Shown here: positions 37,724 through 41,900 of the stretch, piece by piece
Layout of the letters: each line of letters starts with the position of its first letter
Position numbering within the stretch: the stretch's first letter is position 1
NCBI RefSeq assembly: GCF_015244565.1
Contig: NZ_JABCQG010000003.1
Coordinates: forward strand, 1 to 64,000
DNA length: 64,000 nt
Source of the DNA: Gluconobacter vitians
GTDB lineage: Bacteria; Pseudomonadota; Alphaproteobacteria; Acetobacterales; Acetobacteraceae
Direction: 5' to 3'
Translations under genes and position numbers: made by a program
Notes under the pieces: model-generated
Database searches by the model: none
What the model was told of the DNA's origin: nothing
What the model saw: only the letters and a program-made list of their open reading frames with translations

Positions 37724-37959
37724 GTGAGCGCAGACTGTTCAGCACCGAGGCTGCCGCACAGTACCTGAGCCTGTCCACATCGAGCTTTCGTACTGCTGTT
37801 GCACCACACTGTCGCAAACTTCACCCAGTGCCTGGGCGGGTAGTCTGGGACCGGTTGGATCTGGATGCCTGGGCAGATGGACTGAGCGGCCGCAAACCGC
37901 AGCTTGAAACCGTGGCTCAGGGCACTACACCTAATCCGTTGGATCGCTTCCTGACTTGA
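37720..37959 (+). CDS. xis: Excisionase / AlpA-like HTH protein
   Basis: 79 residues from ATG 37720. FSTEAAAQYLSLSTSSFRTA is a MerR/AlpA-type winged helix N-terminus, followed by GRVVWDRLDLDAWADGL, the usual wing segment of excisionase-like proteins. It overlaps the integrase start by 4 bp, fitting a directionality factor or integrase regulator. Confidence 0.72.
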   Translation: MSERRLFSTEAAAQYLSLSTSSFRTAVAPHCRKLHPVPGRVVWDRLDLDAWADGLSGRKPQLETVAQGTTPNPLDRFLT

Positions 37960-38981
37960 CCATCATCCGCCTCAAATACATCCAGAAGGTCCGGGACCGT
38001 TACGGCAGATACAGGCTGTATTTCCGTCGTCCCGGCTTTCAGTCGATCCGCCTTCCAGATCCTACGACGCCGGAGTTCTTCCAAGCCTATCAGGAAGCCC
38101 TTGCCCGCACGACCGTGCAACAGGCAGCTCCCGTTCCAAAGACATTGGCGCATCTAATCGACGCATGGATGCAGTCCGGGCGTTTCAAGGCCCTGGGCTC
38201 CAGCACCCAGACAAACTATCGTCGCCTTTTGCTTTCAATCCAGAAAGCGCCGTATGCTGACGACTATGTGGACCAGTTCCAGACAGTTCATTTACGCCGC
38301 TTCGTGGAAGAATTCGCAGACCGGCCAGCAGCTGCGAATCATCGAATCAAACTATTCCGGATGCTGTTCGAGCATGCCATCGATGATGGCTGGCGGACGG
38401 ATAATCCCGCCACGCCTCTCAAGCGTCTGAAGGAAAAGCAGGATGGTGCCGAATCGTGGAGCGACGAGCACATCCGACAGTTCGAGGATCGGTGGCCTTC
38501 TGGATCCGTCCCTCGTCTGGCTCTGGCGCTCCTGCTCTATACTGGCCAGCGTCGCAGCGACGTGGTGCGCATGGGGCCACGTCATATCCGTGGCGACCTG
38601 ATCGAGGTGACGCAGCAGAAGACAGGCGCGGCCTTGCTGATCCCCATTCACGCCGCGCTTCAGGTTGAGCTGTACAGGCACATGGCGACGCCCACGTTTC
38701 TGGCACGCCAGAACGGAGAGGCATTCACGGCCAATGGTTTCTATATGCGGTTCAAGGCTTGGCGGTCAGAAGCCGGACTGCCTGATGGATTGAGCCCTCA
38801 TGGCCTGCGCAAGGCTGCTGCACGTCGGCTGGCAGAAGCCGGATGCTCTGCGCATCAGATCGCAGCGATCACTGGCCATGCGACACTGGCCGAGGTTCAG
38901 AGATATACCCGCGCCGTCGACCAAGAGAAGCTGGCCAGAGAGGCGATGGCGCGGATCGCTGCTGTAAAACGCATCTCCTAA
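37956..38981 (+). CDS. int: Tyrosine recombinase, prophage integrase
   Basis: 341 residues. The core-binding domain spans ~60-150, the catalytic domain ~165-325 with Arg199 in YTGQRRSD, Lys222, His282 and Arg285 in PHGLRKAAAR, His308 in TGHAT and the nucleophile Tyr317 in QRYTRA. All catalytic residues are present, so integration and excision should be possible. It is convergent with the tRNA-Arg gene, 52 bp from its 3' end, which marks the attachment site. Confidence 0.95.
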   Translation: MTIIRLKYIQKVRDRYGRYRLYFRRPGFQSIRLPDPTTPEFFQAYQEALARTTVQQAAPVPKTLAHLIDAWMQSGRFKALGSSTQTNYRRLLLSIQKAPYADDYVDQFQTVHLRRFVEEFADRPAAANHRIKLFRMLFEHAIDDGWRTDNPATPLKRLKEKQDGAESWSDEHIRQFEDRWPSGSVPRLALALLLYTGQRRSDVVRMGPRHIRGDLIEVTQQKTGAALLIPIHAALQVELYRHMATPTFLARQNGEAFTANGFYMRFKAWRSEAGLPDGLSPHGLRKAAARRLAEAGCSAHQIAAITGHATLAEVQRYTRAVDQEKLAREAMARIAAVKRIS

Positions 38982-39033
38982 AGTGTAAAACATTAGGGGA
39001 AAACGGCAGTTTTGTGCGGGTGTTTTGTTCGTA

Positions 39034-39073
39034 TGGTGTCCGCGAGAGGATTCGAACCTCCGGCCCCAGGATT
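39034..39073. other. Attachment site region (3' exon of tRNA-Arg)
   Basis: The 3' exon of the tRNA, including the T arm, acceptor strand CGCGGAC and encoded CCA, is next to the integrase. Tyrosine recombinases commonly use tRNA 3' ends, so the prophage-chromosome junction must lie within this stretch. The second att copy should be at the other prophage end, outside the window, so the core length cannot be read here. Confidence 0.65.
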
Positions 39074-39309
39074 CTTACCACTTCGGTTTTCACCGCCATG
39101 CCTGAAGGCATGTTCGTGGTCTGGACTGTCTCTTCACCACAACCTCCGAGAAGGGAAGCCAAGGTGTCACCCGTACAGTCTCTACACCTTCTTTCCAGCG
39201 CGCCGGAAAGCTTGGCTCGGGATTGGCACGATCAAGACGATCAGAGCGTTCCCCGAATTTGAGCGAATCCACCATGCGGTTTCCCATCATGGCGCCCAAT
39301 TCAAACCTT
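39074..39309 (-). ncRNA. Group I intron in tRNA-Arg(CCU), IC3-like
   Basis: 236 nt without an ORF. Core elements in 5'-3' order on the minus strand: P-like AAATTCGGGGAACGC (39260-39246); Q-like AATCCCGAGCCAAGC (39224-39210), whose CCCGA pairs with TCGGG of P to form P4; R-like GTAGAGACTGTACGG; and S-like GACAGTCC. P7 pairs GACTGT (39180-39175) with ACAGTC (39129-39124). The 5' exon ends in U and the intron ends in G, as group I splicing requires. A P9-like hairpin CATGCC-TTCA-GGCATG is near the end. It resembles known proteobacterial tRNA introns (Agrobacterium tRNA-Arg, Azoarcus tRNA-Ile). Confidence 0.9.
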
Positions 39310-39356
39310 AGGAATCCTGTGCTCTATCCTGCTGAGCTACGCGGACGAACAGCTTA

Positions 39357-39385
39357 ATGATATTCCGGTTACGGTAATTCTGCAA
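39357..39385 (-). promoter_or_regulatory. Candidate promoter of the tRNA-Arg gene
   Basis: On the minus strand TTGCAG (39385-39380), a 17-bp spacer and TATCAT (39362-39357) lie 10 bp upstream of the tRNA 5' end. Confidence 0.5.
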
Positions 39386-39776
39386 CCATGCCGGTTTCCC
39401 GTGCACAGACTATGGACCATCGTCATTTGCGATGATGGCAGGATAAGGGGCCTGTAAAACAGCAGGGGCATCAGGAATAGAAAAGATGGCATGACGTGTT
39501 TATGCTATCTAAACCTTTTTCTGGTTACTCTTTCGGATGAGGCTTCTGTTGCAGCCTTGCAAGGCACCTCTTTTCCATCAAAAAGGTGATCTGTTTTCTG
39601 GTAGTACCAAATCCTGAGTAGGATCGATCGCATTCGCGCCTGGCATCCTACACAAGACCTCTTTGCAGAGGTGTTGCAGGTTTGACTGGGTTGAGAATTG
39701 CCATGATCTGCATTGCTTACGACGATACACTGAAGCGGCCCGAAGTTTCTGCCCATCTCAGGGAAAGGCGCTGAGC
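39386..39776. other. Intergenic region without recognised gene
   Basis: About 390 bp between the tRNA promoter and the BTAD-type regulator. All frames here are short or lack gene-like composition. It probably contains the promoter of the downstream regulator, but I see no convincing boxes or repeats. Confidence 0.5.
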
Positions 39777-41900
39777 ATGGGGGCGGCAAAGATGATGGAG
39801 AGCGCATCCCGTCACGTCCGCGAGACTGACCCCACGCTCCTGCGCCTGAAGTTAATAGGTCAGATGGAGGCGAGAACCCTTACGGGTGAGAGCGTCCTTC
39901 CGGTCGGCGGTAAAACGCGGGCCCTTCTGGCCATTCTTGCCCTTTCGGATCGAAAACCGGTCCTGCGTTCCCGTCTTGCCGAACTACTATGGAGCCAGCG
40001 TCCCGAGGATATGGCCCGCGCATCGCTCAGGCAGGAAATCCATCGCCTGCTGGATGCGCTGAGTCCACTGGGCGTGGATGTCATCGATGTCCAGCGGCAT
40101 TCCCTTGCCCTGAAGCCGGCCCTGACCTCTGTCGATGCTGAAAGACTGCTGACCGCCAGCGTTCGTACAATTGACAGTATCACCCTGCCTGACGAGCAGT
40201 TGCTTGGCGAACTGGCTGGCGTGGACCCCGCACTGGATGAATGGCTCATTCAGCAAAGAGAACGGCTGTCAGCGCATCTTCAGCTCGTTTATGAAAATGC
40301 CGTTCGGGAACTGACCGATCCGGATCAGGTCGAAAACATGGCCGAGCGCCTGCTGAAGTTTGACAACCTGAACGAGATTGCCTGGCGCGCAAGGATACAG
40401 ACGGCACTCCATCGTGGAGACCAGGGACGGGCAGTCGCACTGGCCGACCAGATGACCCATCTGTTTGGCGACGTTGAAGGACACGCTCTGGCTCCTGCAA
40501 CCCAGGCCCTGATTGCAAGTATTTCGACGGACGGTCACGGCAGGGAAGCGGCGAACGATGTCTCCCAGGCGGCTCTGCCAGCCGGGGGGACTGATTTGCC
40601 CTACAGCGCGCCCATGCCGCGACCGGATCCAATGCTGGCCCTGCCGTTGCACTATGCCTCACGGGATCCGTCATCTGCAGAGCCGCGAAGAATTTCGCTG
40701 GTTTTTCTGTCACCATCATATTCTGACCAAACGCTCGCGGAGCAGGGGCAGGACCTGCGGGATCAGCTGGAACTCATTTTCGTTCATATGGGAACGTTTG
40801 ACGTTCTCTCTGTCCCTAAGGCCTCTGAGCCTGATCCGGTTAATGCAGCGGCGGTCTATCGGGCCTGGGGTACGGATTACATCATTTCCGGGAGCCTGCG
40901 CGGAGGGGAGGGCGGTACGGACAACCGGCTCATCGTCCGCGTCCTGGATGCGCGGCGTGGTGGTGTCATCATCTGGGGAACACATTACGATTTCCCGTCC
41001 ACTGGTCCGGATGCAGGAACAAACAGCCTGCTTGCACCCGCACAGGCGATGCAGTGGAGCATTTTTGTTGCTGAAGCCCGACGGATTGCCGCGCGCCCGG
41101 ATTCCGAACTTTCTGCTCTGGGAATGGCGCTGAGGGCGTTCATGCTCCTCCTGCGGCACGACAGTTCTTTTTTTGGCAGGATCGGAGTTCTGCTGGAACA
41201 CGCTACCGATCTTGAGGAAGAAGACGGAGCCATTGCTCTCATTGACGCGCTGCACTGCTATGTCCGCTTTCTGAACGACTGGAGTGCAGACGCGGAGGCG
41301 GTGTTTGCCCATGGTCTTCGCAGGATCCGGGCCTCAGTCTCGCTGCTGCCGGATCTTCATGCTGTCGAGGTCCTGCTTGCCGCATACCTCATGTATGATC
41401 CCGACATGCACAGCACGGCGCTCTCGGTCGCCCAGATGGCGGCTGAAGGCATCTCCCGGAACGACCGGCATTACAGGGATTCTCCTGACTATCTGATGGC
41501 TGTCATTGTGCTGGAACTGTTGCGGGGTAATGCAACGTCGGCGGCTGGCACCGTGAAGAAACTTCTTGAAAACGGCTGCCGGTCCCAGTTGCTGGAGCTG
41601 TTGCGACCGGTTTTCATGATGATCCTGCTGCTGGGCGATGACTATCAGGAAGTAATTTCCATGGGCAGGTTAATGTCCGGTCTGTACCCGGTCTGTCCGA
41701 GTTCGCTGGTTTACTATCTCATTGCGCTGGTCGAGATCGGTGATTTTCCTGACGAGGCTCAGCAGGTTCATCGACACCTGCTGCGTCTGGTCCCGGAGCT
41801 GACAATTTCAAAAATTGTCAGCAAGTTTCCCTTCGTACCAAAAGCACATCAGAAGAGGCTGGCGGATGCATTGGGCAAGGTCGGGCTCGCCAGGGGATAA
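39777..41900 (+). CDS. BTAD/TPR-type transcriptional regulator
   Basis: 707 residues from ATG 39777, after AGGGAAAGG; the frame is open further upstream but not gene-like. Residues ~20-105 are a winged-helix domain (LPVGGKTRALLAILALSDRK, SRLAELLWSQRPEDMARASL), ~110-240 a BTAD helical domain. A mixed domain follows at ~300-420 (GTDYIISGSLRG), resembling the TolB/FlgO-like part of adenylate-cyclase-like regulators, and TPR-like helices fill the rest. Such proteins act as activators with an internal sensory part. It is the first chromosomal gene beyond the tRNA; targets are unknown. Confidence 0.75.
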   Translation: MGAAKMMESASRHVRETDPTLLRLKLIGQMEARTLTGESVLPVGGKTRALLAILALSDRKPVLRSRLAELLWSQRPEDMARASLRQEIHRLLDALSPLGVDVIDVQRHSLALKPALTSVDAERLLTASVRTIDSITLPDEQLLGELAGVDPALDEWLIQQRERLSAHLQLVYENAVRELTDPDQVENMAERLLKFDNLNEIAWRARIQTALHRGDQGRAVALADQMTHLFGDVEGHALAPATQALIASISTDGHGREAANDVSQAALPAGGTDLPYSAPMPRPDPMLALPLHYASRDPSSAEPRRISLVFLSPSYSDQTLAEQGQDLRDQLELIFVHMGTFDVLSVPKASEPDPVNAAAVYRAWGTDYIISGSLRGGEGGTDNRLIVRVLDARRGGVIIWGTHYDFPSTGPDAGTNSLLAPAQAMQWSIFVAEARRIAARPDSELSALGMALRAFMLLLRHDSSFFGRIGVLLEHATDLEEEDGAIALIDALHCYVRFLNDWSADAEAVFAHGLRRIRASVSLLPDLHAVEVLLAAYLMYDPDMHSTALSVAQMAAEGISRNDRHYRDSPDYLMAVIVLELLRGNATSAAGTVKKLLENGCRSQLLELLRPVFMMILLLGDDYQEVISMGRLMSGLYPVCPSSLVYYLIALVEIGDFPDEAQQVHRHLLRLVPELTISKIVSKFPFVPKAHQKRLADALGKVGLARG

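Follow-up and report, generated by a model that had tools for sequence, protein, structure and literature searches.

A tRNA-Arg(CCU) gene of Gluconobacter vitians appears to be split after its anticodon by a group I intron

We find that a tRNA-Arg(CCU) gene in a 64-kb stretch of Gluconobacter vitians DNA, here called the window, is very probably split after U36 by a group I intron and spliced to a working 77-nt tRNA; we put the probability of this reading at about 0.96. Judging from its sequence, the element is almost certainly a self-splicing group I intron of the alphaproteobacterial tRNA-Arg(CCU) family. An intron of this kind had been proposed for the locus in an earlier note on this DNA, and the RF00028 match, the ARAGORN prediction, the presence in all 26 genus genomes searched, the helices and their covariation all agree with that proposal.

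The gene was located using ARAGORN. With introns allowed, the program reported a single tRNA in the window, a tRNA-Arg(cct) at c[39034,39346] on the minus strand, with an intron of 236 nt and a spliced length of 77 nt. Without introns it found no tRNA in the 64 kb, and the gene is indeed one that a plain tRNA scan misses, as had been predicted. The 5′ exon (39310–39346, minus strand, 37 nt) ends with U36, the last base of the anticodon, and the 3′ exon (39034–39073, minus strand, 40 nt) encodes the CCA end; both are placed by ARAGORN with introns and by the sequence. Between them lies the putative group I intron (39074–39309, minus strand, 236 nt, final base G), which is defined by ARAGORN, the RF00028 match, the drawn helices and covariation. 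The insertion point is thus between nt 36 and nt 37, with the junction ttcct-intron-aatcc. Joining the two exons gives a complete cloverleaf with one G-U pair in the T stem, and the spliced tRNA-Arg(CCU) would contain ...TTCCTAATCC.... The earlier note had described this layout correctly: its coordinates are exact to the base, and the two-segment cloverleaf with the anticodon CCU, the 236-nt insert directly after the anticodon, the exon-final U and the intron-final G were all recovered, while the strand, which is the minus strand, was absent from it.

Insertion after nt 36 was seen in all 81 resolved tRNA-Arg(CCU) introns, which all come from Acetobacteraceae. An exon-final U and an intron-final G were also present in 81 of 81, with the placement script's score favouring these bases. 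At 236 nt, the intron is too short for a homing endonuclease. No sigma-70-like promoter was found in 38900–39700, which says little for this bacterial group.

The Rfam model RF00028 matches the minus strand at 39314–39096 over model positions 1–253, with 46.0 bits and an E value of 1.5e-10, and is the only Rfam family to do so. As the gathering cut-off of the model is 50, a default Rfam scan of the window, which applies the curated cut-off, reported no match. The covariance-model search that had been suggested as a check on the group I assignment therefore has two sides: it gave a match with a low E value, and this match scores 4 bits below the gathering cut-off.

Helices were drawn for the intron in the window and transferred to 36 aligned intron-bearing tRNA-Arg(CCU) genes. 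Over 72 pairs, standard pairs were found in 96.0% of the cells (84.7% in shuffled and 32–41% in slid controls), changes on both sides in 40 pairs (shuffled 30.5, slid at most 22) and a covariation score of 0.386 (shuffled 0.170, slid at most 0.086), a comparison that somewhat favours the real structure over the slid controls because the structure was drawn on one of the 36 aligned sequences. No variation occurs in the anticodon arm or in most of the catalytic core of the 36 genes.

All helices are read from the minus strand. P1 (39295–39312) pairs CCU|AA (39312–39308) with UUGGG (39299–39295) and has a U-G wobble at the 5′ splice site; its exon pairs CG, CG and UG are identical in 36 of 36 sequences. 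A different guide, GGGAA further inside the intron, was considered and rejected, as the alignment puts GGGAA in the P2 loop and P1 at the pairing given here. P2 (39270–39294), which has a GAAA loop, is paired in 100% of the cells with four of seven pairs changed on both sides, and P3 (39167–39266; 39266–39261 with 39172–39167) is likewise 100% paired with three of six pairs changed on both sides. P4 (39217–39256; 39256–39251 with 39222–39217) encloses P5, which together with its extension is 94.0% paired and has five of seven pairs changed on both sides. In P6 and P6a (39186–39216), P6 is invariant and P6a is 91.9% paired, with all six pairs changed on both sides. P7 (39124–39180; 39180–39175 with 39129–39124) forms a pseudoknot with P3 and is the expected guanosine-binding helix. 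The P4 and P7 pairings had been claimed before, and the alignment upholds them: P4 is invariant, as are five of the six P7 pairs, the sixth being unpaired in 5 of the 36 sequences. P8 (39135–39166) is 85.1% paired, with 10 of 11 pairs changed on both sides; its outer four pairs are 100% paired and its inner seven 74.9%. Finally, P9, P9a and P9b, the last with a GAAA loop (39077–39120), are 97–100% paired.

The P2 loop is GAAA in 35 of the 36 sequences and CAAA in the other, and the P9b loop is GAAA in all of them. GNRA loops in P2 and P9 are a trait of subgroup IC3, known from the Azoarcus intron, in which P2 and P9 carry GAAA loops. We also calculated folding energies. The intron has a z score of −2.11, with 8 of 200 shuffles folding as well, and the whole gene a z score of −2.17, with 2 of 100 shuffles as good. 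Free-energy folding by itself is weak evidence for the intron.

In the splicing pathway that we propose, the precursor RNA would fold into the group I core, and a guanosine bound in P7 would attack after U36. The freed 5′ exon, held by its anticodon CCU on the GGG of the guide, would attack after the last G of the intron at 39074, by which U36 would be joined to A37 and the intron released, leaving a tRNA of 77 nt for AGG codons. Alternatively, the first AA of the 3′ exon could bind the UU of UUGGG and so take over the place of the intron AA on the guide in a P10-like pairing.

We searched other genomes of the genus, the family and the class for the split gene. An RF00028 match was present in 26 of 26 genus genomes, the window's own included; it scored above the cut-off in 8 of them, and 18 had none above it. 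The best matches in all 26 were called by ARAGORN as tRNA-Arg(cct) with an intron of 223–240 nt. In 21 of the 26 loci, a homologue of the gene that precedes the tRNA in the window (39663–41900) is encoded upstream at a distance of up to ∼1.5 kb, which indicates that the locus is orthologous in most genus genomes. We propose that the intron has been inherited vertically within the genus, and its presence in all genus genomes searched fits this. One genus intron (L057) stands beside introns of other genera in the tree described below, at a place where the branches are long, and simple vertical descent does not predict this placement.

The 299 family genomes searched comprise 62 in which the split gene was found, 141 with the unsplit pattern, none with both and 96 with neither. 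The figure of 141 comes from an exact-match pattern and is an upper one: among 12 unsplit-pattern matches that we examined, 11 were tRNA-Arg(CCU) and one was a tRNA-Gly (L135, the only match in its genome). The 96 genomes with neither form may reflect the strict filters of the intron search together with the exact matching of the unsplit pattern. That split and unsplit genes never occur together is what would be expected if the split gene takes over the role of its unsplit counterpart; a Fisher test gives 1e-20, a value that is descriptive only, because the genomes are related.

We also searched a public genome collection with the exon-intron junction pattern, which yielded at least 118 stretches. 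ARAGORN called 107 of the 118 listed as tRNA-Arg(cct) with an intron of 213–297 nt, found no intron gene in 8 and called 3 otherwise. The 107 listed include 57 from Acetobacteraceae, 23 from Bartonellaceae, 8 from Paracoccaceae, 6 from Aurantimonadaceae and 3 each from Phyllobacteriaceae and Azospirillaceae. The nearest named introns among 80 listed loci compared were those of an uncultured Gluconobacter (91.6%) and of G. albidus (91.1%). A class-wide search with RF00028 gave a match in 31 of 385 genomes, which is a lower bound, since its filters were stricter and passed over genera recovered with the junction pattern. Only four of its matches, all in Acetobacteraceae, were tRNA-Arg(CCU), and none of the other resolvable ones was. 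Separately, one locus (L096, 1417–1807, minus strand) has a 314-nt tRNA-Arg(CCU) intron in which a long stretch is inserted ahead of the guide sequence.

If the gene were a dead split copy that has lost splicing, AGG would have to be read by tRNA-Arg(UCU) or by another tRNA-Arg(CCU). In the genome, the Rfam tRNA model finds 45 tRNAs. ARAGORN, run on all 45 places and on the intron locus, gave one CCU tRNA, which is the split one, and an intact tRNA-Arg(UCU). The latter might read AGG by wobble, so that the split gene need not be essential. The spliced anticodon arm, used as a 13-base pattern, had no exact copy in the genome; of its three one-mismatch copies, one lies in a tRNA-Ser(GCU) and two lie in no tRNA found by ARAGORN. 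Thus, no second tRNA-Arg(CCU) was found in this draft of 93 contigs, whose inventory lacks tRNA-Ile(GAU) and tRNA-Ala(UGC). These are tRNAs that must exist, so the draft is incomplete for RNA genes and a second CCU gene could be missed. The earlier note had named another intact tRNA-Arg(CCU) gene as something that would speak against it, and neither the inventory nor the arm pattern revealed one in this assembly. A dead copy is nevertheless very unlikely, because it would by now show decay: neither the anticodon arm nor the greater part of the catalytic core varies in the 36 aligned genes, compensatory changes run throughout the intron in the same genes, the gene is kept in all 26 genus genomes, and the unsplit pattern is absent from all 62 genomes that have the split gene.

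Less probable still, and in our view close to negligible, is that the insert is removed by protein enzymes, or that it is of unrelated origin and has just the look of a group I intron. A site near the anticodon is also canonical for the enzyme-spliced tRNA introns of archaea and eukaryotes (PMC4033280), but these are described in the same source as relatively short, below 100 nt, whereas the insert in the window has the full group I architecture, including the P3/P7 pseudoknot, and an Rfam match over all 253 positions. We thus favour the reading of a group I intron that is removed from a functional tRNA-Arg(CCU) precursor.

We built a quick tree without bootstrap, which holds 122 of 133 loci and whose 81 tRNA-Arg(CCU) introns are all from Acetobacteraceae, with Bartonella and others absent. 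Within this scope, the 81 Acetobacteraceae tRNA-Arg(CCU) introns are of common descent: a branch with support 99 has all of them on the same side, together with one long-branch tRNA-Leu row (L105). A supported branch separates 21 of the 22 alphaproteobacterial tRNA-Leu(UAA) introns from them, and the remaining one is a long-branch row. Hosts other than tRNA-Arg(CCU) are clustered, although among hosts with several rows only tRNA-Arg(UCU) forms a single group, and the long branches on this side of the tree make the placements unsure. The host changes that the tree needs are 5 for Leu(UAA), 3 for Lys(UUU), 3 for Leu(CAA), 2 for Thr(GGU) and 1 for Arg(UCU), with 12 host changes in all against a shuffled mean of 38.9.

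These other hosts came from the RF00028 searches of the family and class genomes, in which matches also fell in tRNA-Leu(UAA), Lys(UUU), Lys(CUU), Thr(GGU), Arg(UCU), Leu(CAA) and Asn(GUU), with insertion sites from nt 33/34 to nt 36/37. Hosts were assigned by reading anticodon loops, as several were misnamed by ARAGORN, and six loci (L122, L123, L162, L167, L178 and L193) have an equally scored second host choice. The loci with other hosts are within L077, L089, L091, L098, L103–L127, L151, L157, L162, L167, L168 and L175–L196, ranges that also hold some tRNA-Arg(CCU) loci and some without a resolved host.

One such intron is found in the genus itself. In one genus genome (L076, 1436–1723, minus strand) a tRNA-Lys(UUU) is interrupted between U35 and U36 by a group I intron of 212 nt, and the genome of the window has an intronless tRNA-Lys(UUU) (L002, 1498–1573, minus strand) that is letter for letter equal to the L076 exons. 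In a genome from a different genus, a tRNA-Lys(UUU) with slightly different exons (L150, host assigned by hand) is interrupted by an intron at the position seen in L076. We considered that the L076 intron might be a recent copy of the tRNA-Arg intron of its own genome, and the tree rejects this: L076 groups with the tRNA-Lys intron of another genus at 85% identity (support 83, not starred) and lies across the support-99 branch from the tRNA-Arg(CCU) introns. We give about even odds to the broader view that the tRNA-Arg(CCU) intron is one of several alphaproteobacterial anticodon-loop lineages, with a guide that looks as if it had been retargeted several times. Going by titles and the beginnings of abstracts in the open-licence literature, we found no paper on these other alphaproteobacterial hosts. 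Introns of 22–49 nt called group I are described in cyanobacterial tRNA-Arg, Gly and Lys (PMC5733544), and these are far shorter than the alphaproteobacterial introns in other hosts reported here.

The region past the 3′ end of the tRNA looks like a prophage, which by its sequence would span window positions 1–38981. A prophage tyrosine recombinase (integrase; PHROG 1, E 2.3e-42) is encoded at 37956–38981 on the plus strand, 52 bases beyond the tRNA 3′ end. Ten proteins were scanned in the 39 kb past this end, of which eight match phage-type families (tail, tail sheath, connector, portal, terminase, RecT-like, exonuclease and integrase), one belongs to a family of unknown function and one is without a match. 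We looked for the other attachment site of this prophage without success: a second copy of a 20-base piece of the tRNA 3′ end, allowing up to two mismatches, was not found in the genome, and the piece is not among the listed direct repeats of at least 20 bases in window 1–40000; the contig begins at window base 1, and the far end of the prophage lies outside the sequence. A related integrase sequence adjoins the same tRNA in 2 of 25 other genus loci, L071 (in two pieces) and L058 (70 residues), so that the 3′ end of this intron-bearing tRNA may well be a place where phages have integrated more than once.

Taken together, the results describe a tRNA gene, present in all 26 genus genomes searched, that is missed by an intron-less tRNA finder and by a default Rfam scan, with the effect that genomes can seem to be without tRNA-Arg(CCU). 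They also allow an intron fixed in one tRNA to be compared with its relatives in other tRNAs of these bacteria, where the distribution is patchy; for tRNA-Lys, a filled and an empty site can be compared inside a single genus.

Like the Azoarcus intron, the element is a small group I intron in a tRNA anticodon loop, and the host tRNA is a different one. The suggestion that its presence in this organism would extend the group of known introns does not hold, since the element is already recorded, probably in Gluconobacter itself. A footnote to Table 1 of PMC4596401 lists Gluconobacter oxydans 621H, Acetobacter pasteurianus, Komagataeibacter medellinensis, Gluconacetobacter diazotrophicus and Asaia bogorensis as having a tRNA-Arg that is interrupted by a group I intron-like sequence. 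These belong to the same bacterial family, and the footnote very probably concerns the same genus and the same gene as in the window; unlike the description of the window locus, the footnote gives no anticodon, structure or splice sites. The alphaproteobacterial family of tRNA-Arg(CCU) introns is described in PMC7717549, which cites Paquin et al. (1999) and reports that the tRNA-Arg(CCU) group I intron of Bartonella bacilliformis, BbgpI, splices in vivo and in vitro. Among the junction-pattern matches listed, 22 loci of other Bartonella have a tRNA-Arg(cct) intron. Splicing has been shown for BbgpI, which is outside our alignment, whereas the Gluconobacter vitians intron is known here as a sequence. 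The two are alike in being group I ribozymes in the same host tRNA, and the tRNA of BbgpI also went unannotated before its intron was recognised (PMC7717549).
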